Below are positions 1 through 48,868 of a stretch of DNA of 64,000 nt, piece by piece. How positions within the stretch are numbered: the first letter of the stretch is position 1; each line of letters begins with the position of its first letter. The notes beneath the pieces were generated by a model, which did not search any database, was not told the DNA's origin, and worked only from the letters and a program-made list of their open reading frames with translations. The position numbers and the translations under genes were made by a program. Source of the DNA: Schleiferiaceae bacterium (GTDB lineage Bacteria > Bacteroidota > Bacteroidia > Flavobacteriales > Schleiferiaceae); NCBI GenBank assembly GCA_029254375.1, contig JAQWXR010000003.1:1-64000 (forward strand), in the 5' to 3' direction.

Positions 1-1542
1 GCCAAGCCGCACCAGTTGGAGCATATCTGGGATGCCGACAATGCCATTACGACGCAGTTTCAGTACAACACCAGCGGCAGCATCACGCAGATCGACGACC
101 CCAGTCAGGGCATCCCCCAAGAGTTTTATTGGAACGAGGCGCAGCAGCTCACGGGCGTGAAGAACCAACAAGGGGTGCACCACTACATCTACGACCACCA
201 GGGAGAGCGCATCATGAAGTCCTCGCTGATCACTTCGACGGTCTACCTCAACGACCAGGTCATCGATGATGTGAATAACCTAGATCCCTATACCGTCTAT
301 GTGAATCCCTTCTATGTGGTCACGGGGTTCATGGGAGGTGACCGCGTGTCAAAGCACTACTACATGAACCAGCAGCGCGTGGCCACGGACATTTCCATTA
401 ACTACGACCCCAACGGGAATGGTGGCGCGGAGGCTCGAGAGGCTTCCCCACGGGCAAACGCACAAAACCTAGCGCTTGTGGACCTATCGAAGGTGTTGCG
501 CGCGCTGGACCAACCCGAATTGGATACCACGGCACTAACCTTACCGCGTATTGAATCCGTTTATCCGGAACTCCAGCCATCATCCACCACCAGCACAGCT
601 CTCACCGAGAACATCACCAACCGAATTCTGTTCTGGTACCACCCGGACTACCTGGGCAATGTGGACCTAGTAACCGAAAAAGACGGCTATGCCTACGAAT
701 TCTTCGTCTACACCCCCTGGGGAGAAGAAATGCACCAATGGAACGCCAATACGTTCAATTTCAGCTCCCCCTACCGCTTTAACGGCAAAGAACTCGACCC
801 TGAAACCGGACTAGCCTATTACGGCGCCAGGTACTACCAAAATAAAATCGGAGTGTGGTTGAGTGTGGACCGCTTTGCTAATAAATATCCAAATGTGTCA
901 CCATATAGTTTTTGCTACAATAATCCTCAAATATTTAATGACCCAACAGGTGATACAATAGTAAATAAGGCACAATCTGGAACTGAAGAATATATAAGAT
1001 TAGAAAATGGAATATTAAATTTTAAAATTAAATGCCCATCGGCTTATGCCGAAATGCACGCTGCTCCCCAATTGATAGAAATAAACTTCTCTGATAATAA
1101 CCTAATTTCGGATTTAGGACGTGAATTAAATGGAAACACAACTACGAATTATTTGGTCGAAAATAATACTTCAATCTTGCCTCAATCACTAACTAGACTA
1201 GTTATAGAAAATGATGAGATTTTTCCTGAAAAAATATTCAACGGTATTTTTGAAATAAAAAGAGGTCATGACCCATCTGAGTGGATGACGATTTACACAA
1301 GAAACCAATCAATAGTGGAGGTTCAAGGGTTTCAGATTACTATAGATCGACATTTATCCGGATCTGAATTGAATTCAACAATAGGTCATGAATTTGGCCA
1401 TTCGCTTTTTGCACTTCAAAATCCGCTATTGAGTTATATATGGGGGTTAATACAGAATAATTCTCATCCAAATGGACGCGGACATGATAAATATAATCCC
1501 TCAGGACATGAAGCAGTATATTATGGCAATCAAGCAAGGTAA
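1..1542 (+). CDS. RHS repeat-associated core domain protein, C-terminal part (5' truncated by window), with variable tip containing a HEFGH motif
   Basis: RHS core signature YRFNGKELDPETGLAYYGARYYQNKIGVWLSVDRFANKYPNVSPYSFCYNNPQIFNDPTGD, followed by a different tip with GHEFGHS. The listed ORF start at 16 is a TTG inside an open frame, so the gene continues upstream. Confidence 0.92.
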   Translation, partial: AKPHQLEHIWDADNAITTQFQYNTSGSITQIDDPSQGIPQEFYWNEAQQLTGVKNQQGVHHYIYDHQGERIMKSSLITSTVYLNDQVIDDVNNLDPYTVYVNPFYVVTGFMGGDRVSKHYYMNQQRVATDISINYDPNGNGGAEAREASPRANAQNLALVDLSKVLRALDQPELDTTALTLPRIESVYPELQPSSTTSTALTENITNRILFWYHPDYLGNVDLVTEKDGYAYEFFVYTPWGEEMHQWNANTFNFSSPYRFNGKELDPETGLAYYGARYYQNKIGVWLSVDRFANKYPNVSPYSFCYNNPQIFNDPTGDTIVNKAQSGTEEYIRLENGILNFKIKCPSAYAEMHAAPQLIEINFSDNNLISDLGRELNGNTTTNYLVENNTSILPQSLTRLVIENDEIFPEKIFNGIFEIKRGHDPSEWMTIYTRNQSIVEVQGFQITIDRHLSGSELNSTIGHEFGHSLFALQNPLLSYIWGLIQNNSHPNGRGHDKYNPSGHEAVYYGNQAR

Positions 1543-2050
1543 CTGTAAATACTTTTCACGGAAAATAATAATATCCATATTTTTTCTTCTAATTGGTTTT
1601 TCATTGACATCACAAACACTGCAGTTGGACGTAGTACAAATCAAAAAGATATTTAATCAAATATGTGATGAAAATAATGCTAGTTTAGAAATTCGTCTTT
1701 CAACAAACGACAGTGTTTCAATTGTTCCAATATTGATATGTAGTGATTGTGTTAATAATGACACAATGTTTATGAAATTATTGAACAGATTAATTGCATT
1801 GGATCAGGTTAAAATACTTGATCATCGGTTTGAATCTAAAATACCTAATAAAATTGGCCACATAAGTTTTTCAAGTCATTTTCCTGAAATTCGAATAATT
1901 AGCATTTACTATTGTGCTAACGAAATTTTTCGTATTGAAGGGATTGATTTGAATTTATTATTAAAAGTTGATGGGATATTTGGACTTTCTGATAAACTTG
2001 AATTTATCCGTATTTTTCAGGAGCTTTATTTAGTCGATCCTTCGCATTGA
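1523..2050 (+). CDS. Hypothetical exported/membrane-anchored protein, candidate immunity protein for the RHS tip
   Basis: ATG at 1523 overlaps the RHS stop by 20 nt in another frame. N-terminus KIIISIFFLLIGFSLTSQ resembles a signal peptide. Position directly after a polymorphic-toxin tip. Confidence 0.6.
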   Translation: MAIKQGNCKYFSRKIIISIFFLLIGFSLTSQTLQLDVVQIKKIFNQICDENNASLEIRLSTNDSVSIVPILICSDCVNNDTMFMKLLNRLIALDQVKILDHRFESKIPNKIGHISFSSHFPEIRIISIYYCANEIFRIEGIDLNLLLKVDGIFGLSDKLEFIRIFQELYLVDPSH

Positions 2051-2289: not shown

Positions 2290-2430
2290 CGTAACATGTT
2301 ACGTTACGCCCTATTTCAGATGATTTTGCACCACTTGTAATCTGTAGTAGCCATATAATCAGAATATTACGGACCTCATTAGAGCGTAACGCCGTGTTAC
2401 GATCGGGCCAAAACGTAACATCATGTTACG
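2290..2430. repeat. Three CGTAAC...GTTACG palindromes
   Basis: CGTAACATGTTACG 2290-2303; CGTAACGCCGTGTTACG 2385-2401; CGTAACATCATGTTACG 2414-2430. Confidence 0.9.
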
Positions 2431-3388
2431 CTTTATCCTTGGAGTCTTTTCGTGCGAGTATTCGGCTTACGCGCATTTTATTGACTCCTGCTTGGCGTGC
2501 AATTTCTGCTTGAGAGAGATCGGGGTTTTGAAAATGCAGAGCGAGGACTCGGTCGCTGATGCCGGGGTGGTCGGCGGCACGCAGCAAGTCGGACTCCTCG
2601 CAATAACCGTCAAACACAAATCCGAGTAATCCATTTCTTGGGGCAAGCCGGCATTTGACTACGTTTTCGGCGCCATAGTTGAGCATTGCCGAGCGCACCT
2701 TGATCTGCTTGATGTAGCGCTGGTCGGTGGACTCGCAGCCTTTACCGATGGCGATAAGGCTGTCGGCCAAGCGCGACAAGCCGGCAGATCCTGCGAGGTC
2801 TGCTTCGCTGATCGATAAACTCTTGTTGCGCTTGGGGGTATGGGCTAAGAGCATGATCGACAGGCGAAATTCCTCTTTAAGGACTTTCATCTCGCGCATA
2901 AAGTCAATGGCCTCCTGAGCGGTTTCAAGGGAATTCCCTGCGAAGTAGGATAGGTTGTCGATGATTAGCACACGGGAGCGGTAGCTTTCAATGTGGCTGC
3001 GGATTTCGGCAAAGACGTCTTGGTTCCCCACTCGCTGTGCTTGGCAGTCGGGATTGTAGCCGATTCGGTACAAATTGGGTGAGAAGGTGTAGGAAATTCC
3101 GGAATGGCTGTAGCGCTGCTCAAACTGCTTGTCGTTGAATTCAAAGTCATAGTACAGCACTCCCTGCCCCGGGACGCCAAGTTGAAATCCGGGGATTGCC
3201 GTCCCGCTGGCTATGGATTGGGCGACCTGTACGGCCAGCAGAGACTTCCCCACGTTGGTGTCGGCAAACAAGATGCACAGCTCCTGCTCAAACCAGAGTT
3301 CGTCGAAGAGCATCATGGGCGTGGGTATCTGCTTGGCGTCTTCCAGACAGCGGTTGGCGGTGCGCACGGTGAAGATGGGCGATTTCAT
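2426..3388 (-). CDS. RepA-like AAA ATPase (mobile-element replication protein) with C-terminal HTH
   Basis: Walker A LFADTNVGKSLLAVQVAQSIASG; VLIIDNLS Walker B-like; C-term LSQAEIARQAGVNKMRVSRILARK resembles an HTH. Confidence 0.8.
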   Translation of the reverse strand: MKSPIFTVRTANRCLEDAKQIPTPMMLFDELWFEQELCILFADTNVGKSLLAVQVAQSIASGTAIPGFQLGVPGQGVLYYDFEFNDKQFEQRYSHSGISYTFSPNLYRIGYNPDCQAQRVGNQDVFAEIRSHIESYRSRVLIIDNLSYFAGNSLETAQEAIDFMREMKVLKEEFRLSIMLLAHTPKRNKSLSISEADLAGSAGLSRLADSLIAIGKGCESTDQRYIKQIKVRSAMLNYGAENVVKCRLAPRNGLLGFVFDGYCEESDLLRAADHPGISDRVLALHFQNPDLSQAEIARQAGVNKMRVSRILARKDSKDKA

Positions 3389-3702
3389 GTTCCGTGGTAC
3401 AGGGCGTTAAGGGACAGGTAGTAGGGACAGCCCGCGGGACAGTCCTCCCGAAATCGATACACCGCCAAGACGGTGTTCACCTCGGGGTGGTGCTTGAGAA
3501 TGTGCCGCAAGGCACGACGAAGCGGCGTCTCCCCTATGGAATTCTCATTGGAGCCATCCAGAATCCGTTTCAAAACGTCTAGATGCCGCGCCATGGATTC
3601 CTTAGAAAGTGTGACGGCACCCTCTGCTGAGGATTCTGCAGCGAGCGCGGTGTCGATGGCGCAAATGAGATCCTGCAGCTCTGAGCGTTGGGTGCGGGTC
3701 AT
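3385..3702 (-). CDS. Hypothetical protein, mobile-element associated
   Basis: ORF overlaps the start of the downstream RepA-like gene and the end of the HTH gene by 4 nt each, suggesting translational coupling. Confidence 0.6.
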   Translation of the reverse strand: MTRTQRSELQDLICAIDTALAAESSAEGAVTLSKESMARHLDVLKRILDGSNENSIGETPLRRALRHILKHHPEVNTVLAVYRFREDCPAGCPYYLSLNALYHGT

Positions 3703-3989
3703 TGCGCGGTGCCGCGTTGCTTGGCATCCAACCAGGCGTCGAGCTGGCTCTTGCGAAACAGCACGCGCTTTCCCTGCTTGATGTGGGGAATGCTTCCCTT
3801 GGAGGTATAGCCGTAGAGGGTATTCTTTGAGATGCGCAGGTACTCGACGGCTTCATCGACGGTTAGCAGCGGCTGCGGGTCAATGGTGATGATGGTCGGC
3901 ACGGGCTCTTCGCCCTCGCGAAGTGCCCGGTAGGATTCGCGGATTAACACTTGAAGTTCTTCTTTGCTGGTGAGAATGATGGGGTCCAT
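3699..3989 (-). CDS. Excisionase/helix-turn-helix domain protein (start adjusted to MDPIILTSK)
   Basis: LLTVDEAVEYLRISKNTLYGYTSKGSIPHIKQGKRVLFRKSQLDAWLD is the typical excisionase-family HTH_17 pattern. Confidence 0.85.
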   Translation of the reverse strand: MDPIILTSKEELQVLIRESYRALREGEEPVPTIITIDPQPLLTVDEAVEYLRISKNTLYGYTSKGSIPHIKQGKRVLFRKSQLDAWLDAKQRGTAQ

Positions 3990-4036
3990 GTGGCAGTTGT
4001 ATTTATGATTACTGCGCAAAGGTTTTGGGAGCCTGT

Positions 4037-4075
4037 CCCTTAGGGTCACCCCACCGAGTACCCTTAGGGTCACCC
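4037..4075. repeat. Two direct copies of CCCTTAGGGTCACCC (4037-4051 and 4061-4075)
   Basis: Exact 15-nt copies with 24-nt period, just upstream of the HTH gene start. Confidence 0.85.
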
Positions 4076-5058
4076 TAGATTCTCAGCTTCTGCATCTCTT
4101 TGTTGAATTTCAGCATGATGGATTCATTCCTGAGGTCCTCAATTAATGGCTTAATTCGGAGCATTCGCTTCAAAACCATGCGTTGATTGCCTTGAAAGGG
4201 GTCGCGGATTTTCTTGTAGAGGTTGTCGTATCCCCTTCCGCTTAAGGCCACCGTGAGCCGCGTGACGGCGGTCATGTCGCACTGGTTAATGTTGGCTTCA
4301 CGAAGCAGAAAGTGCATGACCATGGCCATCTCGGCGTTTTCAAGAGTTTTTGAGTCGCTGAAATCTCCGCCCTCGTCATGGTGCTCGTCTTCGTCCAAGC
4401 AAGTCTCCCGAATTTCTTCCATCAACTCTGGCATACAGGCCATGAGCTCCTTCAGCAAAAGCTCGGGCACCTCGACCAAATCCATTAGGGTCCGCTGGCT
4501 TGAGGTGAGAAGGGCGTTGATGGAGGGCTGCTCTAGAACCAGGACGGCCCACACCATTTTGGTAGCGAGCATGACCTTGTAAATAAAAGCCATCTCACTG
4601 TACATGCCGCGGCGGCAAATCTGCGGCACAGGGGCTATGGCATCGACAGGGTCGGTAAATTCCATGGCGTCTGCGCGGCCGTGAAAAAACTCACGTGCCG
4701 CGACAATCCATTCGCTGAGCCAAGCGCGGTTGCCGTCGTAGAATGTGCCGATGCAACGCTGCAGACCGCGCGTGTCCAATTCACCTATTCCGTTTGGAGA
4801 ATTACTGAGGTGCGTGCTTAGTATCTCGCGCAGTATCGGCCTAGCAAATTCAAGGCAATAAGGGAAAAAATACTCGGGGACCACATTGAACAGCCCCAAG
4901 TCCAACTCTTGAAATCGCCGGGATGGCTGAAATCGAGTCAGTTCATCCAATTTGTCACACAGGTCTTGGCACGGGGCCACTTCGTCCAAAGAGAGTAAGG
5001 TAAATGCGTTCATAGTGGCGACAAGTAACAGCAAAAAACCACCGACAATGATCCGCAA
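4075..5058 (-). CDS. Hypothetical protein; C-terminal part resembles Bacteroidota mobile-element (RteC-like) proteins
   Basis: 327-aa ORF in operon-like orientation upstream of the HTH gene; C-term TRLTVALSGRGYDNLYKKIRDPFQGNQRMVLKRMLRIKPLIEDL. The start may be the internal MNAFTLLS at 5013. Confidence 0.6.
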   Translation of the reverse strand: MRIIVGGFLLLLVATMNAFTLLSLDEVAPCQDLCDKLDELTRFQPSRRFQELDLGLFNVVPEYFFPYCLEFARPILREILSTHLSNSPNGIGELDTRGLQRCIGTFYDGNRAWLSEWIVAAREFFHGRADAMEFTDPVDAIAPVPQICRRGMYSEMAFIYKVMLATKMVWAVLVLEQPSINALLTSSQRTLMDLVEVPELLLKELMACMPELMEEIRETCLDEDEHHDEGGDFSDSKTLENAEMAMVMHFLLREANINQCDMTAVTRLTVALSGRGYDNLYKKIRDPFQGNQRMVLKRMLRIKPLIEDLRNESIMLKFNKEMQKLRI

Positions 5059-5590: not shown

Positions 5591-5833
5591 TAAACATAAG
5601 CCAATTAGGGCAAACCAAGGGTTCGATTACCACACTCTGCGTCGCAACTAACTGAACAACAGTACCATTATGTACCATTTTGTAACAGTGCTGGGTTGCT
5701 TTTTTTAGAGTTGCAAAAAAGCAACCCGCTAAGCAACCCAATGTGGGTACATTTCGTTACACCGGTTCGGACAAAAAAAATGCCCAAAACGTTGGTTTTG
5801 AGCACTTTGATACAGTTTGGTACTGTAGTCTTG

Positions 5834-5920
5834 CGGAGAGAGGGGGATTCGAACCCCCGATACAGTTTCCCGTATACACACTTTCCAGGCGTGCTCCTTA
5901 AACCACTCGGACACCTCTCC
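5834..5920 (-). tRNA. tRNA-Ser(GGA)
   Basis: Minus strand GGAGAGGTGTCCGAGTGGTTTAAGGAGCACGCCTGGAAAGTGTGTATACGGGAAACTGTATCGGGGGTTCGAATCCCCCTCTCTCCG: complete cloverleaf with long variable arm and GGA anticodon. Confidence 0.95.
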
Positions 5921-9596: not shown

Positions 9597-12320
9597 TTAG
9601 CAGTCAAATGTTTTTTGGATGGTCGCTTTTTGAATATGGTGCGCAGCTTGGTGCGATCCAGAGGCAGAGGCAGCAGAGGCTGAAGGCGAAACACGCTGAA
9701 GCGGTAAATCAGTATTTGTTCGCAGGTAGGACCATGCACCCATGTTGGCGGGCTCTTCTTGGGCCCAAACTAACTTCACATTAGGGGCGTATTTGCCTAA
9801 TTCTGCCTCAAGGGCCTCCTCAGGCAAGGGATAGAGCTGCTCCAGTCGAATTAAGGCCGTCGTGGTGTCCTGACGATTTTCGCGCTCCTCTAGCAGTTCA
9901 TAGTAAAGCTTACCTGAACACAGCACCACCTTCTTCACGTTTTTGGGATCCAAATCGTCTCCCATCACAGGTTGGAACTGCCCTCCGCTGAGCTCTTCCA
10001 TGGTGGACGTGGCCTTGGGGTGACGCAACAAACTCTTGGGGCTCATCACCACCAAGGGCTTGCGGAATTTCTGATGCATCTGACGGCGCAGCAAATGGAA
10101 ATGGTTGGCTGGCGTGGTGGTGTTACACACAAACATGTTGTTTTGCGCACAAAGCTGAAGGAATCGCTCTAGACGTGCCGAAGAGTGCTCCGCCCCCTGT
10201 CCTTCATAGCCATGAGGAAGCAAAAGGACGATCCCACTCTGCACTTTCCACTTATCCTCTGCTGCTGCCAAGAACTGATCAATGATGATTTGGGCGCCGT
10301 TGGAGAAGTCGCCAAACTGCGCTTCCCAAATGACCAAGGTCTCCGGGCTCGCCATGGCGTAGCCATAGTCATAGCCCAGCACGGCATATTCAGACAAGTG
10401 CGAATTGTAGATCGCGAATCGGCCACGCTTATTGGCTACCTGATCTACTAAGCATACTTTTTCTTCGGAGTCTTCTAATTTAATAATGGCATGGCGGTGG
10501 CTAAACGTTCCGCGCTCTACATCTTCTCCAGAGATTCGAACATTAAAGCCATCCTGCAACAGGGTTCCGTAGGCCATCATTTCTGCCATACCCCAGTCCA
10601 GCGCATTGCGCTCAAAGGCCATTGCGGCGCGATCGCCAATGAGGCGAACAATCTTAGTGAAGAACTTTTTGTCGTCTGGAAGCGTCGTCAAGGCTTTAGC
10701 CACCCTATCTAAACGCTCACGCTCGACTTTCGTGTTTGGTCGGTGGTGCACATCGCCGTTTTTGGCGGCAGGGAAGTTTTGCCACTCATCCAGCATGAAT
10801 GGAACAATGACGTTCTTTTCGATTTTTTTGGCGGTATCAAACTGGCCCTCTAACATGCCCTTGAACTCCTCTTCCAATTGCTTTAGCCACGGGCTAGCCA
10901 CCTGACCCTCTCCAAGTAATTTCTGGAAGTAAATCTCCCGCGGGTTAGGATGGCGTGAGATCTCCTTGTATAGCAAGGGCTGGGTGAAGCGCGGTTCATC
11001 CCCCTCGTTGTGCCCGTATTTACGGTAACACAAGAGATCTATAAAAACATCGCGATGGAAACGCTGACGGTATTCCATCGCAAAGCGAAATGCGTGTACT
11101 ACCGCTTCTACGTCATCCCCATTCACATGAAGGACAGGGGCTAACACTACTTTGGCCACATCGGTGCAGTACGTGGATGAACGCGCATCTATGTAGTTTG
11201 TGGTAAAGCCCACCTGGTTGTTGATCACCAAATGAATGGTGCCACCGGTGGAATACCCAGCAAGGCGCTCCATCTGCAACGTTTCGTAAACAACGCCCTG
11301 TCCTGCCACCGCGGCATCCCCATGAACCAAAATGGGCAGTACGTGATCAAAATTATTGTTGTATTTCGTGTTGCCTTTCGCACGAGCAATGCCCACCACA
11401 ATGGGATCAACCGCCTCCAAATGGGAGGGATTGGGTGCGATGTTCATCTTGATCTTCTTCTGGTTGGCTAAGGTGCGCTCGGTTGAATAGCCCAAATGGT
11501 ACTTTACATCGCCGTCAAAATCATCTTCGGCAAATTCTTTCCCTTCAAATTCAGAGAAAATCTGCGACGCTGGCTTTCCGAATACATTCGTTAAAACATT
11601 CAATCGACCTCGGTGCGCCATCCCGAGCACTACTTCTTTTACGCCTAACTCTGCGCCACGCTGAAGCATAAAGTCCAAACCGGGAATGAGCGATTCAGCT
11701 CCTTCGATGGAAAAGCGCTTTTGACCTACGAACTTGGTATTCAAGAATGACTCAAAGGCCACCGCTTCATTGAGCTTGTGTAAAATATGGTGTTTTTCCG
11801 TCTGACTGAGAATCGGGTAATTGTCATTGGGGTGAATGAAGGACTGAACCCACTTGATCACATCAGGTTGACGAACATACATGTACTCCACCCCAATGGA
11901 ACGACAGTAAATCGCTTCGAGGTGGGCAACAATTTCACGCAATGAGGCCGGACCAGGCAAGCCTACCTCCATGGCCGCTTGAAACACTAAATCCAAATCT
12001 GAGGCATGTAGCCGGAAGTTCTCAAGATCTAGTGTTGGACTATATGCCCTACGCTGACGTACTGGATTGGTATGGGTAAAGAGGTGTCCGCGGGTTCGAT
12101 AACCATTGATCAAATCGAGGACGGCAAATTCTTTGCGAACCTCATCGGGAACGGCTGTCTCTAACTCAAGCAGGTCGCCATATTCCGAACGTGAAAAGTC
12201 ATATCCCTGAAAAAATGATCGCCACGAAGGTTCAACCTCATCTGGATTATTAACATACTGTTCGTAGAGGTCATCCAGAAAGCCAACATGTGAGGTTCCT
12301 AAGAAGGAAAAGCGGTCCAT
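9597..12320 (-). CDS. sucA: 2-oxoglutarate dehydrogenase E1 component
   Basis: MDRFSFLGTSHVGFLDDLYEQYVNNPDEVEPSWRSFFQGYDF and VVLGMAHRGRLNVLTNVFGKP. Confidence 0.97.
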   Translation of the reverse strand: MDRFSFLGTSHVGFLDDLYEQYVNNPDEVEPSWRSFFQGYDFSRSEYGDLLELETAVPDEVRKEFAVLDLINGYRTRGHLFTHTNPVRQRRAYSPTLDLENFRLHASDLDLVFQAAMEVGLPGPASLREIVAHLEAIYCRSIGVEYMYVRQPDVIKWVQSFIHPNDNYPILSQTEKHHILHKLNEAVAFESFLNTKFVGQKRFSIEGAESLIPGLDFMLQRGAELGVKEVVLGMAHRGRLNVLTNVFGKPASQIFSEFEGKEFAEDDFDGDVKYHLGYSTERTLANQKKIKMNIAPNPSHLEAVDPIVVGIARAKGNTKYNNNFDHVLPILVHGDAAVAGQGVVYETLQMERLAGYSTGGTIHLVINNQVGFTTNYIDARSSTYCTDVAKVVLAPVLHVNGDDVEAVVHAFRFAMEYRQRFHRDVFIDLLCYRKYGHNEGDEPRFTQPLLYKEISRHPNPREIYFQKLLGEGQVASPWLKQLEEEFKGMLEGQFDTAKKIEKNVIVPFMLDEWQNFPAAKNGDVHHRPNTKVERERLDRVAKALTTLPDDKKFFTKIVRLIGDRAAMAFERNALDWGMAEMMAYGTLLQDGFNVRISGEDVERGTFSHRHAIIKLEDSEEKVCLVDQVANKRGRFAIYNSHLSEYAVLGYDYGYAMASPETLVIWEAQFGDFSNGAQIIIDQFLAAAEDKWKVQSGIVLLLPHGYEGQGAEHSSARLERFLQLCAQNNMFVCNTTTPANHFHLLRRQMHQKFRKPLVVMSPKSLLRHPKATSTMEELSGGQFQPVMGDDLDPKNVKKVVLCSGKLYYELLEERENRQDTTTALIRLEQLYPLPEEALEAELGKYAPNVKLVWAQEEPANMGAWSYLRTNTDLPLQRVSPSASAASASGSHQAAHHIQKATIQKTFDC

Positions 12321-12414
12321 TGAATCCGTTGATTATTCAAAACAAAATTACGGCAAAAACCACGCCCCAAGCCTGCGAATTCCGCAGAAAATCAAAGGTT
12401 CTATTGAGGGATTT

Positions 12415-13380
12415 TTAGGCTTTTCGGTGGAATATCCATTTGGCCAGCGCGCTGAGATCTGTCGTTTCAGCACCTAATTCCTTGGAGCGCCCTAAAGCTT
12501 CCATGGCTAGTTTAAAATGATGACTGCGCTGTGTTTCCGCATGGGCTAAACTCCCTGCCTCTACCATCGCTGTCTTGATTGCCTCGACTTTTTCTTCACT
12601 TTTTTGCCCCTCCCAAGTGCGAAGTAAGCTCCCATGGGTTTTGGCGAGGTGAATCCAAAGCATCGTTTTTTTATTGGAGCGAATGTCTCCACCTACTTGC
12701 TTTCCTACTAACTCTGCATCCCCAAAAGCGTCCAAAATATCATCGTGAATTTGAAACGAAGTACCCAATTCTAGGCCGAAAGCATACATAGCTTTTGCCA
12801 TTTCTCGGGAGCCCTCAGCCGCAAGAATGCCTAGTTCGAGCGCGCAGCCAAGCAATACAGAAGTTTTGTAGCGAATCATCTGCACATATTGCCCCTCCTG
12901 CACGTGTTCTTCTGTCTCAAAATCCATATCCCATTGCTGGCCTTCACACACTTCAAGGGCGGTTCGATTGAAGACCTCGAGTGCCTCAGGTAATATGCTC
13001 GCCGGCAACGCCCTCAGGCTTTCGTAGGCCATGACAAGCAGGGCATCGCCACTTAAAATAGCCGTATTGTTTCCCCAGGTTTCATGAACCGTTGGCTTGC
13101 CTCTGCGAACAGGAGCTTGATCCATGATATCGTCGTGAATCAAAGAGAAATTATGAAAACGCTCCACCGCATGGGCGGCAGGTAGGGCAACCGTGGCCGA
13201 TTTACCTAGCGCTTCGGCAGCCATTAAGGACAATACCGGACGCAGTCGCTTGCCTCCCATGCCCAAAATGTAGCGCTGAGGCGCATAAAGTCGATCCGGT
13301 TGCCTATTCCATTCTGGCTCGCCAAAACCCGACTCTAAACTTTGCAGAAAAACGCGTTGTAATCGCTCTACCGCCGTCAT
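12415..13380 (-). CDS. Polyprenyl synthetase family protein
   Basis: Aspartate-rich motifs [20 protein letters not shown] and [13 protein letters not shown]. Confidence 0.93.
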
Positions 13381-14237
13381 CCCAGCAAAGATTTCAGATA
13401 TGCCCCGTACCCGCTCTTGAGTAAGGGCTTAGCCAAGGCTTCTAGCTGAATAGAATCAATGAATCCCATGCGATAGGCCACTTCTTCAATGCATCCCACC
13501 TTGAGCCCCTGCCGGCGCTCCATAATTTGGACAAACTGGGCCGCCTCCATTAAGCTATCAAAAGTACCTGTGTCCAGCCATGCTGTACCTCGGTCCAAAA
13601 CGCCCACATGCAACGCACCGCGCCGCAGATATTCGCGGTTGATATCGGTAATCTCATATTCACCGCGTGCCGAAGGTTGCAGATTTGCGGCTATTTCGAC
13701 GACTTGGTTGTCATAGAAGTATAAGCCAGGAACTGCGTAATTACTTTTTGGTTGAGCAGGCTTCTCCTCGATGGAAAGGACCTTTCCATTTGCGTCAAAA
13801 TCAACCACGCCATATCGCTCTGGGTCACTAACCGGATAGGCAAAGACAATTCCGCCCTGCGGCTTAGCGCTCTCTTGCAAGAGTTGGGGCATTTGAGTGC
13901 CATAAAAAATATTGTCTCCCAGTACCAATGCTACGCTATCAGACCCAATGAACTCCTTGCCCAACACAAATGCCTGGGCTAAGCCATTGGGCTCGGGCTG
14001 GACGGCGTACTGGAAGGAGCACCCTAATTGACTTCCATCCCCCAGGAGGTTCTGGAACAACGGGGCGTCATGCGGGGTGCTAATAATCAGAATCTCCCGA
14101 ATGCCCGCCTCTAATAGCGTGCTCAAGGGATAATAGATCATCGGTTTGTCATACACTGGCATGAGCTGCTTGCTCACAGAATGCGTGAGCGGGTGGAGGC
14201 GCGTGCCAGATCCTCCAGCGAGAATGATTCCTTTCAT
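13377..14237 (-). CDS. rfbA: Glucose-1-phosphate thymidylyltransferase
   Basis: [46 protein letters not shown]. Confidence 0.96.
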
Positions 14238-44344: not shown

Positions 44345-47300
44345 ATGCGTATGTTTCGTCCCCTTTTCATTTGCTTCAGCCTTCTTTTTTCGGCTTTTTC
44401 GATGCGTGCCCAAACGACAGCTTCGTATGTCGATTTAATGAATGATCCGACCGTCAATTTTTATGACGTTGTAGAGGCCTTCAACGAATACTGGGAGGGT
44501 AAATCCGTAGAAAAAGGAAAGGGATGGAAACAGTTCAAGCGCTGGGAAGCATTTATGGAGCCCCGTGTCCATCCAACGGGGATTCGTCCCAACGCTCAAG
44601 CACTTTACCAAGGCTATGCTGCAGGCATTCAAGGAACGAGCACTGCCTCGACCGGGGGCTTGGGTCAGTGGTCCATTGTTGGACCCTTTGATGGAAATAG
44701 TTTGGATGGAATTGGGCGCGTCAATGTGATTGCCTTCCATCCTACGATAGCGAATACTTTATATGCCGGAGCCCCAGCTGGTGGTCTGTGGAAGTCCACA
44801 GACGATGGATTAACCTGGTCTACCAATACCGACTTGTTGCCCAACTTAGGCGTTTCGGCCATTTTAATTGATCCGAGCAATCCTTTGATCATGTATATCG
44901 GTACCGGAGATCGCGATGCAGGGGATACGTACTCTTTGGGCGTGATGAAATCGGTTGATGGAGGGCAGACATGGAATCCAACAGGGTTGAGCTTTAATCT
45001 CACGCAATCTGCACGTATTTCCGGAATGGCGATGCACAAAGACAGCACGCATCATTTGGTGGCGGCGACACGTAGCGGAATTTACCGAAGCTTGAATGGC
45101 GGTGCTAGTTGGACTGTTGAAGCGGGAGGCACCTTTGGTTGCCTGGTCCAAGTTCCAGGAACCAATAAGCTTTATGCGGGAACAAGCAGCAACGGCCGCA
45201 TTTGGATGTCTAACGATTTCGGGGATACCTGGACCATGTTAACCAGCGGCCTACCAACGAACGCCGGCCGAGTTGAATTGGCCACAACGGAAGCCGATAC
45301 AAACTATGTCTATGCCCTCTATGGCGCCAATAATAATGGACTGTATGGGGTCTACCGCAGTATCAATGGCGGCACTTCTTGGACGCAGCGACATGGTGCC
45401 TCTCCCAACTTGCTAGATTGGAGCACCAATGGATCGGGATCTGGAGGTCAAGCGTGGTATGACTTGTCGATTGCCGTTTCGCCTTTGGATAAAGACGTCG
45501 TATTAACCGGCGGAGTCAACGTATGGCGCTCCAACAATGGCGGGACTAGCTTCGCGTTAAGTGGCCACTGGTATGGCGGCGGCGGCGCTTCCTTCGTCCA
45601 TGCGGACCACCACTGGATGATTTTCAAATCAGGAACTAATCAAGTCTATGCAGGCTGTGATGGCGGGGTCTATAAATCAGGCAATGGCGGAGTGAACAAC
45701 TCATGGGTTTCCCGCAACATTGGCCTATCTATTACACAGTATTACAAAATTGGAACGACGGAAGCAGATACCACGTTAACTATTGCTGGAGCACAAGACA
45801 ATGGAACCCATCTGAACGATAATGGATGGGACAAAGTCGGAGGCGGTGATGGTATGGACTGTGCTATTTCGGCTTCTGACGGCAACACCATGTACCGATC
45901 AATTTACTACGGGGATTTTGACAAATCCACGAATGGTGGAAATAGCTTCAATTCTTCCTTTAACCTCCCTCCTGCAGGCACAGGCAACTGGGTAACGCCT
46001 TTCTTAGCGAGCCGAATCAACTCTAACACCTTGTATGCCGGCTTCACCAAACTTTGGAAGAGTACCAATGCCGGCGGCAGCTTCAGTGCTACGAGCAGCA
46101 ACAACGTTCAAGGATCGAGCAACATTGACTGCATTGCAGAGGCATTAAGTAATTCTAACGTGCTTTATGTGAGCATTGATGAACGACTATTCCACAGTTC
46201 AGATGGCGGACAGACCTGGAACTGGATCACCTCTAATGTGGGTAGTAGTAATGTTATAAGCGGAATCACGGTGGACCCTAGCAATGAAAACCACGTTTGG
46301 ATTTCCAAATCAGGCTATTACGCGGGCACTAAGGTCTACGAAACCTTTAATGCAGGTGGCTCTTGGTACAACCGCAGCGGCAGCTTGCCCAATATTCCCG
46401 CGAATTGCATTGCTGTTCAGCCAAACAGCAACGGCATTGTATACGTCGGAACAGATCTCGGCGTCTATTACCGCGACGCCTCGATGAGCGATTGGGTTCC
46501 TTTTATGCAGGGATTGCCTAACACGGTCATCAATGACATCGAGATTCTCAACAATGCTGGTATCATCCGCGTGGGAACGTATGGACGTGGCGTCTGGCAG
46601 AGTCCCTTGGCGACGGCTTTCTTGGATCGCCCCGAAGCTAATTTTTCAGTTTCCTCTGAAGTCTTGTGTAGTATCGCTGATACGATTTCCCTGACCGACC
46701 AGTCCAGCAACCTACCAAGCTCATGGTCCTGGACGATTTACCCATCGACCTTTCAGTTTGTGAACGGTAGTAGCTCAACTTCTTCCGATCCTCAAGTGTC
46801 CTTTAGCGCTTCAGGGGCGTACACCATTCAATTGGTGGTGGAAAATGCCTACGGAAAAGACACCCTCACTCGTCCCGCGTACATTCATGTGGGTGGAATT
46901 CAATCCCCCGTAGTGGAGGAATTTGTTGCTGCCATCCCTTCACGATGGACCCTGGAGAATCCAGACTTTGGTCAAGGGTGGGGTATCGCTCCCGTAGGCA
47001 GTGCCAACGATAATACCTCGGCTATTTTCCGAGGATATGGCTACAGTGCCGCCGGACAGACGGACAATTTAATTTCTCCGAGCTACCTCATCGATACGGC
47101 GAGCACCTTGGTCTATGATTTGGCCTACCGCCCGCTGACTGGTGGAGCATCCGATACCCTCACGGTGTTTATCAGCACGGATTGTGGCGACACATGGACG
47201 TCTCTTCGTCAATACGTAGAAACCGGTAATAATACCTTCGCAACGGGGGCCGCTCAAGGCAATGCTTTCGTGCCAAGCTCTAGCAGTGATTGGCGGACGG

Positions 47301-48868
47301 ACAGCATCGATTTGACCGGTTATGCGGGCCAAGTGCAGTTTAAGTTCGAAGCCCGCAATGGCAATGGCAACCATGTGTATTTGGACTTTTTGCGTATCAC
47401 ATCCGCTAGCGTCCCGGCGCCGACCGCTGATTTCTTCAGTGATACGACCACATGTATTAATAAAGCGACTCCATTCTTCTTTGCGGGTACAGGAAGCGGA
47501 TTGAGTTATTCATGGAGTTTCCCCGGAGCTTCTCCAAGTAGTTCTTCTTCGGCTAAGCCCGTGGTTTCCTATCCTTCCGCTGGTCTTAAATCTGTCACAC
47601 TCACTGTGAGCAACAGTGCCGGAAATGCCACGTTGACAAAAACCAGCTACCTCGCGGTTGGAACGCTTTCTAGTCCCTCCGTTTCGATTGTTTCCAGCTC
47701 CACAGCCGCCTGTATAGGGGACACCATCACCTACACGGCAAGCCCAGTTAACGCAGGATCCAACCCGATCTATAAGTGGATTGTCAATGGAGGCCAACGC
47801 GGAGGAAATGCAGCCTCCCTAACGTTGTTTAACTTGAATAATGGAGACAGCGTTCGCTGTGTGGTGACTTCTTCCGAGGATTGTGCGGCCCCTCTTCGCG
47901 CCTCCTCCAACACCCTTCAAGCCAATATTCTTGCCTTGCCCACAGTCAATGCCGGTTCCTATAGCTCGGTGTGCGTGGGCGGTGCGCCTATTAACCTCGT
48001 TGGCACACCGAGTGGTGGAAGTTTCTCTGGTCTCGGTGTAAGTAGCAACCAATTCTTGGCCACCACAGTAGGACAGGGAATCTACACCGTGACTTACACC
48101 TACATGAATAGCAACGGCTGTGTCAATACGGCTACATCGGATATTCAAGTACTTCCGTCTCCAAATATTTTTCTCAACCTACCCATGGCTGTGCTTTGTG
48201 AAAACGATCCCGCTTTTAGCGCATCTGGAGGTTATCCAAGCGGAGGAAATTACTTTGTAGATGGCGTAGCGAGTACACAAATCAATGCATCGGCCTTGTC
48301 GGTGGGAATGCACGAACTCAAATACATCTATACCAATGGGATATGTACTTCTGAGCGCGTAGATAGTTTTGAAGTGCGTTCGGCACCCCCAATGCCCACT
48401 GTTCAAGTTTTTGATGGCGATTCTTTATACTGCCCACAAGCTGCCAACGGATGGGATATCCAGTGGCTTGACGGAAATTTGAACCCCATCTCGGGCGCTA
48501 CGCAAGCCTGGTATGTTGCTCCTGCACCAGGCACTTTCTATGCCCGTCTAAAGCTTGGATTGAGCTGCTTCCCCACTTCGAGCCCAACAGCAGTTACTTC
48601 CATGGAGGAGTTTGCTTTCGGCCGCCTCGCGATTCATCCAAATCCAAGCACAAATTGGTTGACGGTGCAAATGAAATCAAGTGCCGGTCAACCCTATACC
48701 TTGCGATGGACCGATGCCTCTGGTGCCTTGATTTATCAAGAAATCCATAGCGGAACGGGTGAGGTGGTTGAGCACCGTTTTAACCTTCAAAGCTGGCCAA
48801 ACGGAATCTACTTCATTGAGCGTCGTGATGCAGAATTCCAAATCACTGAACGTGTAGTGAAATTCTAA
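44345..48868 (+). CDS. Large secreted VPS10/sortilin-like beta-propeller protein with PKD-like domains and T9SS type A C-terminal domain
   Basis: Repeated Asp-box-like motifs (GLWKSTDDGLTW, MKSVDGGQTW, YRSLNGGASW, YRSINGGTSW); PKD-like regions; C-term LAIHPNPSTNWLTV...GIYFIERRD. Confidence 0.88.
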   Translation: MRMFRPLFICFSLLFSAFSMRAQTTASYVDLMNDPTVNFYDVVEAFNEYWEGKSVEKGKGWKQFKRWEAFMEPRVHPTGIRPNAQALYQGYAAGIQGTSTASTGGLGQWSIVGPFDGNSLDGIGRVNVIAFHPTIANTLYAGAPAGGLWKSTDDGLTWSTNTDLLPNLGVSAILIDPSNPLIMYIGTGDRDAGDTYSLGVMKSVDGGQTWNPTGLSFNLTQSARISGMAMHKDSTHHLVAATRSGIYRSLNGGASWTVEAGGTFGCLVQVPGTNKLYAGTSSNGRIWMSNDFGDTWTMLTSGLPTNAGRVELATTEADTNYVYALYGANNNGLYGVYRSINGGTSWTQRHGASPNLLDWSTNGSGSGGQAWYDLSIAVSPLDKDVVLTGGVNVWRSNNGGTSFALSGHWYGGGGASFVHADHHWMIFKSGTNQVYAGCDGGVYKSGNGGVNNSWVSRNIGLSITQYYKIGTTEADTTLTIAGAQDNGTHLNDNGWDKVGGGDGMDCAISASDGNTMYRSIYYGDFDKSTNGGNSFNSSFNLPPAGTGNWVTPFLASRINSNTLYAGFTKLWKSTNAGGSFSATSSNNVQGSSNIDCIAEALSNSNVLYVSIDERLFHSSDGGQTWNWITSNVGSSNVISGITVDPSNENHVWISKSGYYAGTKVYETFNAGGSWYNRSGSLPNIPANCIAVQPNSNGIVYVGTDLGVYYRDASMSDWVPFMQGLPNTVINDIEILNNAGIIRVGTYGRGVWQSPLATAFLDRPEANFSVSSEVLCSIADTISLTDQSSNLPSSWSWTIYPSTFQFVNGSSSTSSDPQVSFSASGAYTIQLVVENAYGKDTLTRPAYIHVGGIQSPVVEEFVAAIPSRWTLENPDFGQGWGIAPVGSANDNTSAIFRGYGYSAAGQTDNLISPSYLIDTASTLVYDLAYRPLTGGASDTLTVFISTDCGDTWTSLRQYVETGNNTFATGAAQGNAFVPSSSSDWRTDSIDLTGYAGQVQFKFEARNGNGNHVYLDFLRITSASVPAPTADFFSDTTTCINKATPFFFAGTGSGLSYSWSFPGASPSSSSSAKPVVSYPSAGLKSVTLTVSNSAGNATLTKTSYLAVGTLSSPSVSIVSSSTAACIGDTITYTASPVNAGSNPIYKWIVNGGQRGGNAASLTLFNLNNGDSVRCVVTSSEDCAAPLRASSNTLQANILALPTVNAGSYSSVCVGGAPINLVGTPSGGSFSGLGVSSNQFLATTVGQGIYTVTYTYMNSNGCVNTATSDIQVLPSPNIFLNLPMAVLCENDPAFSASGGYPSGGNYFVDGVASTQINASALSVGMHELKYIYTNGICTSERVDSFEVRSAPPMPTVQVFDGDSLYCPQAANGWDIQWLDGNLNPISGATQAWYVAPAPGTFYARLKLGLSCFPTSSPTAVTSMEEFAFGRLAIHPNPSTNWLTVQMKSSAGQPYTLRWTDASGALIYQEIHSGTGEVVEHRFNLQSWPNGIYFIERRDAEFQITERVVKF

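Follow-up and report, generated by a model that had tools for sequence, protein, structure and literature searches.

Toxicity of the VgrG2b tip depends on its HExxH motif and is confined to the periplasm, and PA0261 neutralises the tip only when equipped with a signal peptide (PMC6899460). Zincin-like tips of the Tox-MPTase1-5 and HopH1/Peptidase_M91-like groups have been described on RHS proteins, Bacteroidetes included (Zhang et al. 2012, PMC3482391), with the table in that work listing no immunity protein for the Tox-MPTase/HopH1 families. In the TANFOR/BaCT polymorphic toxins of Bacteroidetes, in turn, the downstream BaCTic immunity proteins are too diverse to align (PMC7073777). The locus presented here lies at the very start of contig C47 of a Schleiferiaceae bacterium (assembly of 1.70 Mb, 88.5% complete), in a window of 64,000 nucleotides that constitutes the whole stretch of DNA analysed. 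As in the VgrG2b C-terminal domain/PA0261 pair (Tpe-Tpi, Pseudomonas and Acinetobacter; PMC6899460), an HExxH motif is found at the C-terminus of a delivery protein and is followed by a small downstream ORF whose product is predicted from its sequence to be exported like PA0261, periplasmic toxicity itself being a feature of VgrG2b; the carrier, however, is a T6SS spike in VgrG2b and an Rhs protein of Bacteroidota here. The zincin-like position at the end of an RHS protein is shared with Tox-MPTase1-5 and HopH1, and the setting of a Bacteroidetes polymorphic toxin with diverse downstream immunity proteins is shared with TANFOR/BaCT, which differ in their N-terminal carrier and in the DNase nature of the BaCT toxin (PMC7073777).

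Because contig C47 begins at window base 1, the N-terminus and most of the RHS protein are missing, and its frame runs without a stop from that base to a TAA at 1540-1542. The resolved C-terminal part on the plus strand (1-945, 5'-truncated by the contig start) carries a YD repeat (TIGR01643, 20.2 bits) and the RHS repeat-associated core (TIGR03696 of NCBIfam, 72.2 bits against a cutoff of 32.5, amino acids 237-317), which ends in ...NNPQIFNDPTG near position 945 and is directly followed by an unrelated tip. Judged by its sequence, the gene thus fits the layout of Rhs polymorphic toxins, where a repeat-associated core precedes a variable C-terminal tip, and a second Rhs core match was not found in the same assembly. 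As regards secretion, a T9SS sorting domain is present in another protein encoded in the window (44345-48868), and a search for the T6SS component TssC (PF17541) gave no match in 88 genomes but was equally empty for its controls, and is therefore uncalibrated and uninformative.

The tip itself (946-1542, plus strand) spans 198 amino acids and contains the GHEFGHS sequence and, further downstream, GHDKYNPSGHEA, as the sequence-only reading had described it. The HEFGH motif at 1387-1401 would provide the presumed zinc ligands H463 and H467 and the catalytic E464 (open-frame numbering), and a second conserved element, HDKYNPSG at 1483-1506, comprises an invariant histidine (1483-1485) and PSG (1498-1506), followed by an invariant alanine at 1513-1515. 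It is important to note that an HExxH motif appears in about 2% of shuffled versions of the tip, and the homology argument is therefore carried by the downstream signature; given conservation of the motif in three relatives together with the downstream P/GxxH/PSGxxA elements, a chance origin of the HExxH appears very unlikely.

We find no family for the tip in Pfam, NCBIfam, PADLOC or PHROGs, nor a convincing match among PDB sequences. The earlier statement recognised neither the tip nor the adjacent ORF as a named family, and the searches agree with it for both proteins. More specifically, Tox-MPTase and HopH1-M91 models give no Pfam match at E ≤ 10 for the window tip or any of its three relatives and no NCBIfam match for the window tip, which sets all the present tips apart from the described Tox-MPTase1-5/HopH1 domains. 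GxxH..PSGxxA is not among the motifs reported for the latter ([DE]N with HExxH in HopH1; Y, K or F[DE/DN] in MPTase2-4). Similarly, whereas VgrG2b is often annotated as DUF4157, the tip has no Pfam match to DUF4157-type or VgrG2b C-terminal (Tpe) domains, and the alignments show no conserved glutamate 3' of HExxH. Since no downstream acidic residue is invariant in all four sequences, a glutamate as third ligand, found in VgrG2b 44 residues past the last HExxH histidine, is unsupported here; the invariant histidine at 1483-1485 (H495, within GxxH), 28 residues downstream, is instead a candidate third zinc ligand, and in combination with the xPSG motif it matches no zincin family in Pfam. AlphaFold models from three and four sequences (mean pLDDT 44.5 and 45.1) are too poor to test for a zincin fold, and Foldseek searches with both return no match at E ≤ 0.001, their matches being noise; the same low-pLDDT models place the HExxH in a predicted helix. 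The conserved HExxH in a predicted helix, together with the one invariant downstream histidine, suggests a zinc hydrolase with three histidine ligands. The tip lies outside every family tested, yet it probably works in the same way as the zincin-like RHS tips already described, and is best seen as founding a new and very rare family within a known kind of toxin.

Relatives were sought in 88 genomes of the same family, Schleiferiaceae, and class-wide in 395 genomes. The family set yielded two, both from other genera. In L004 (G399) an intact RHS core end and tip precede a 195-aa partner ORF with an ATG start and a 4-nt overlap, whose N-terminus is signal-like and conforms to a Q-rule-like pattern, MRIFLYILFFWCNQAFC|Q (...AFC|Q). 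In L003 (G424) a displaced tip fragment with an in-frame TAG comes first, next a 207-aa ORF whose N-terminus is hydrophobic, and last an RHS core remnant; only the piece behind the TAG entered the alignments, with the stop left unmended. Upstream of this displaced tip, three ORFs (11440-12498, 12559-13155 and 13213-13764) occupy L009 11440-13764 of the same genome, at least two of them with signal-like or lipoprotein-like N-termini, and this stretch is possibly a store of orphan immunity genes. The class-wide search added a more distant sequence, L062, a free-standing protein of 238 amino acids (E 3.3e-5 for one genome, 395 having been searched) whose own N-terminus is hydrophobic, as would fit a protein active outside the cytoplasm; its C-terminal end reads HELGHYAY...GHLHQDPSGVMAELFELQF, and the common order of HELGH, P, GxxH and PSGxxA makes homology likely rather than certain. 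Its 3' neighbours (L062 1706-3064) are a tandem pair of similar outer-membrane-type proteins that carry signal peptides.

Eleven residues are invariant in these four sequences from four genera: the H, E, G and H of HExGH, a proline, the G and H of GxxH, the PSG and the alanine, where the family size of four includes one sequence broken by a stop codon (L003) and one remote member (L062). Close relatives were absent from viral contigs, genome contigs, plasmids and phages. Several candidates were set aside: the long proteins of L016, L019, L021-L023, L026, L031, L034 and L044 share no more than HELGH and the H(P/F)...LMDY block behind it, L036 and L040 carry HEFGH but lack GxxH..PSG, and L020 and L063 resemble outer-membrane proteins and have no HExxH. 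In L016, L019, L021-L023, L026, L031 and L034, the HELGHG(I/A)F.L.HPF...LMDY block marks another HExxH family, found in large Flavobacteriales proteins. The alignment also bears on whether the tip is a degenerate, non-functional remnant, as could be read from the Rhs gene being cut by the contig end, the in-frame TAG in L003 and the window tip ending some residues short of that of L004; with tip and ORF both open, all 11 of the 11 invariant residues kept and L062 ending at a similar place, we regard this as scarcely credible.

The tip gene overlaps by 20 nt a 175-aa ORF at 1523-2050 on the plus strand, a probable exported immunity protein, in agreement with the earlier description of an ORF with a hydrophobic N-terminus starting shortly before the RHS gene ends. 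The longest possible version begins at 1472 and would encode 192 amino acids; the start at 1523 is preferred because it alone puts a basic stretch and the hydrophobic segment, IIISIFFLLIGFSL, near the N-terminus. The export signal was assessed manually with the Q-rule that describes signal peptidase I sites in Bacteroidetes, by which cleavage takes place before glutamine (PMC5837995): the ORF shows a charge of +4 in its first 15 residues, a 15-residue hydropathy of up to 2.64 and the sequence ...SLTS|QTLQ, and so presents a signal-like Sec/SPI Q-rule pattern of basic n-region, hydrophobic stretch and predicted cleavage before Gln (TS|Q). In none of 20,000 first-order Markov simulations was the frame open throughout the ORF region.

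In composition, too, tip and ORF behave as a unit, whose junction with the resident gene falls within the conserved end of the RHS core. A change-point fit delimits an AT-rich block at 873-2033, extending about 24 codons into the core end, with a GC content of 31% against 54% upstream and 45% downstream, and GC3, at 0.72 in the core, falls to 0.23 and 0.22 in tip and ORF, respectively; in L004, tip and partner are both at 36% GC and the core is at 46%. Such a block is as expected of a horizontally transferred toxin/immunity cassette exchanged by recombination in the core end.

Downstream of this cassette and upstream of a tRNA-Ser gene (5833-5920), a small mobile-element-like module occupies the minus strand at 2426-5058, with genes for an AAA_25/DnaB-like ATPase with a C-terminal HTH, a 105-aa ORF, an HTH_17 (excisionase-like) ORF and a 327-aa ORF without a family. 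Three palindromes of the form CGTAAC-n-GTTACG (2290-2308, 2385-2401 and 2414-2430; 0.01 expected by chance in the window) are found at the 3' end of the minus-strand ATPase gene and look like operator or iteron sites, and where the HTH_17 ORF meets the 327-aa ORF there is a perfect 15-bp direct repeat, CCCTTAGGGTCACCC, with its two copies at 4037-4051 and 4061-4075.

The partners of the two family relatives are homologous to one another (34% over 99 amino acids, E 3e-16), and in the 88 genomes this partner family was confined to the neighbourhood of those two tips; one further weak match (L067) is antisense and due to chance. The window ORF has no relation to them by BLAST or hhalign, and no homologue of it was detected in the collections searched at the sensitivities applied; matches to L049-L053 were read as chance, and a Pfam hit to CdiA_C_tRNase (15.5 bits, cutoff 26.5) lies far below the cutoff, for an ORF that looks exported. 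As the ORF is without a detectable relative, it is named an immunity protein by its position, by its composition and by analogy. What the window, L003 and L004 have in common is the arrangement itself: next to the tip, or overlapping it, lies an ORF whose N-terminus is hydrophobic or signal-like. The sequence-only proposal of a toxin/immunity pair is thus supported in part, by the tip being a separate exchangeable module with a conserved HExxH, by the common composition block and by the partner ORFs in two relatives.

A genuine metallopeptidase-like Rhs tip might also be accompanied by an ORF that encodes an unrelated exported or orphan immunity protein trapped in the cassette, or protection might come from elsewhere. 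The ORF's unrelatedness to the L003/L004 partners and its want of a homologue would fit, and islands of this type often accumulate immunity genes for other tips. We nevertheless consider this quite unlikely, considering the 20-nt overlap, the AT-rich block that covers both tip and ORF, and the matching location and export signal of the partners in the relatives; immunity families are, moreover, often so diverse that they do not align, BaCT being a reported case (PMC7073777).

In light of these results, we regard as the probable explanation that the tip is an Rhs-delivered, zinc metallopeptidase-like antibacterial toxin that acts in the envelope and is neutralised by the exported ORF product, a pair that would resemble VgrG2b and PA0261 in function. 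The tip would be a small HExxH zinc-dependent hydrolase, most likely a metallopeptidase, with zinc held by H463, H467 and probably H495 (nt 1483-1485) and with E464 as the general base; the Rhs shell would bring it to an adjacent cell, whose envelope (periplasm) would be its site of action, and the ORF product, exported by Sec and processed by signal peptidase I, would bind the tip and thus protect the producer and its siblings. That the exported partners belong to at least two unrelated sequence families indicates that toxin and antidote meet outside the cytoplasm; the envelope target and the neutralisation, like zinc binding and peptidase activity, are what we infer. The same exported partners would equally protect if the tip were a zinc hydrolase of another substrate, for example a peptidoglycan endopeptidase or amidase. 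In favour of this reading, they indicate an envelope target, and GxxH...PSGxxA fits no Pfam peptidase family; we hold it to be unlikely, given that an HExxH predicted to lie in a helix is chiefly characteristic of zincin peptidases and that no peptidoglycan-hydrolase family in Pfam or NCBIfam is matched.

Some metallopeptidase tips, HopH1/NleD-type ones among them, are known to hit eukaryotes or to release toxins (PMC3482391), and the tip could accordingly be directed at eukaryotic cells (predators, algae or hosts) or be a processing peptidase rather than an antibacterial effector. We see this as very improbable, because three loci have an exported partner in close linkage with the tip, as an antibacterial toxin would require, and because the tip is the last domain, with nothing behind it to release. 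Reaching beyond the envelope-acting toxin favoured above, we tentatively raise the possibility, doubtful as it stands, of a new zincin-like clan of envelope-acting toxins with HExxH and GxxH..PSGxxA as its metal/substrate signature and at least two unrelated exported immunity families, its Rhs tips perhaps recruited from an L062-like free-standing exported protein.

With these findings the Rhs arsenal of uncultured Bacteroidota gains a toxin family that is very rare and, at the sensitivities applied, absent from Pfam, from NCBIfam and from the other collections. They suggest the envelope as the site of action of metallopeptidase-like Rhs tips in the phylum, together with exported immunity proteins. 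If both partner families do protect, one toxin fold would be matched by unrelated immunity proteins.
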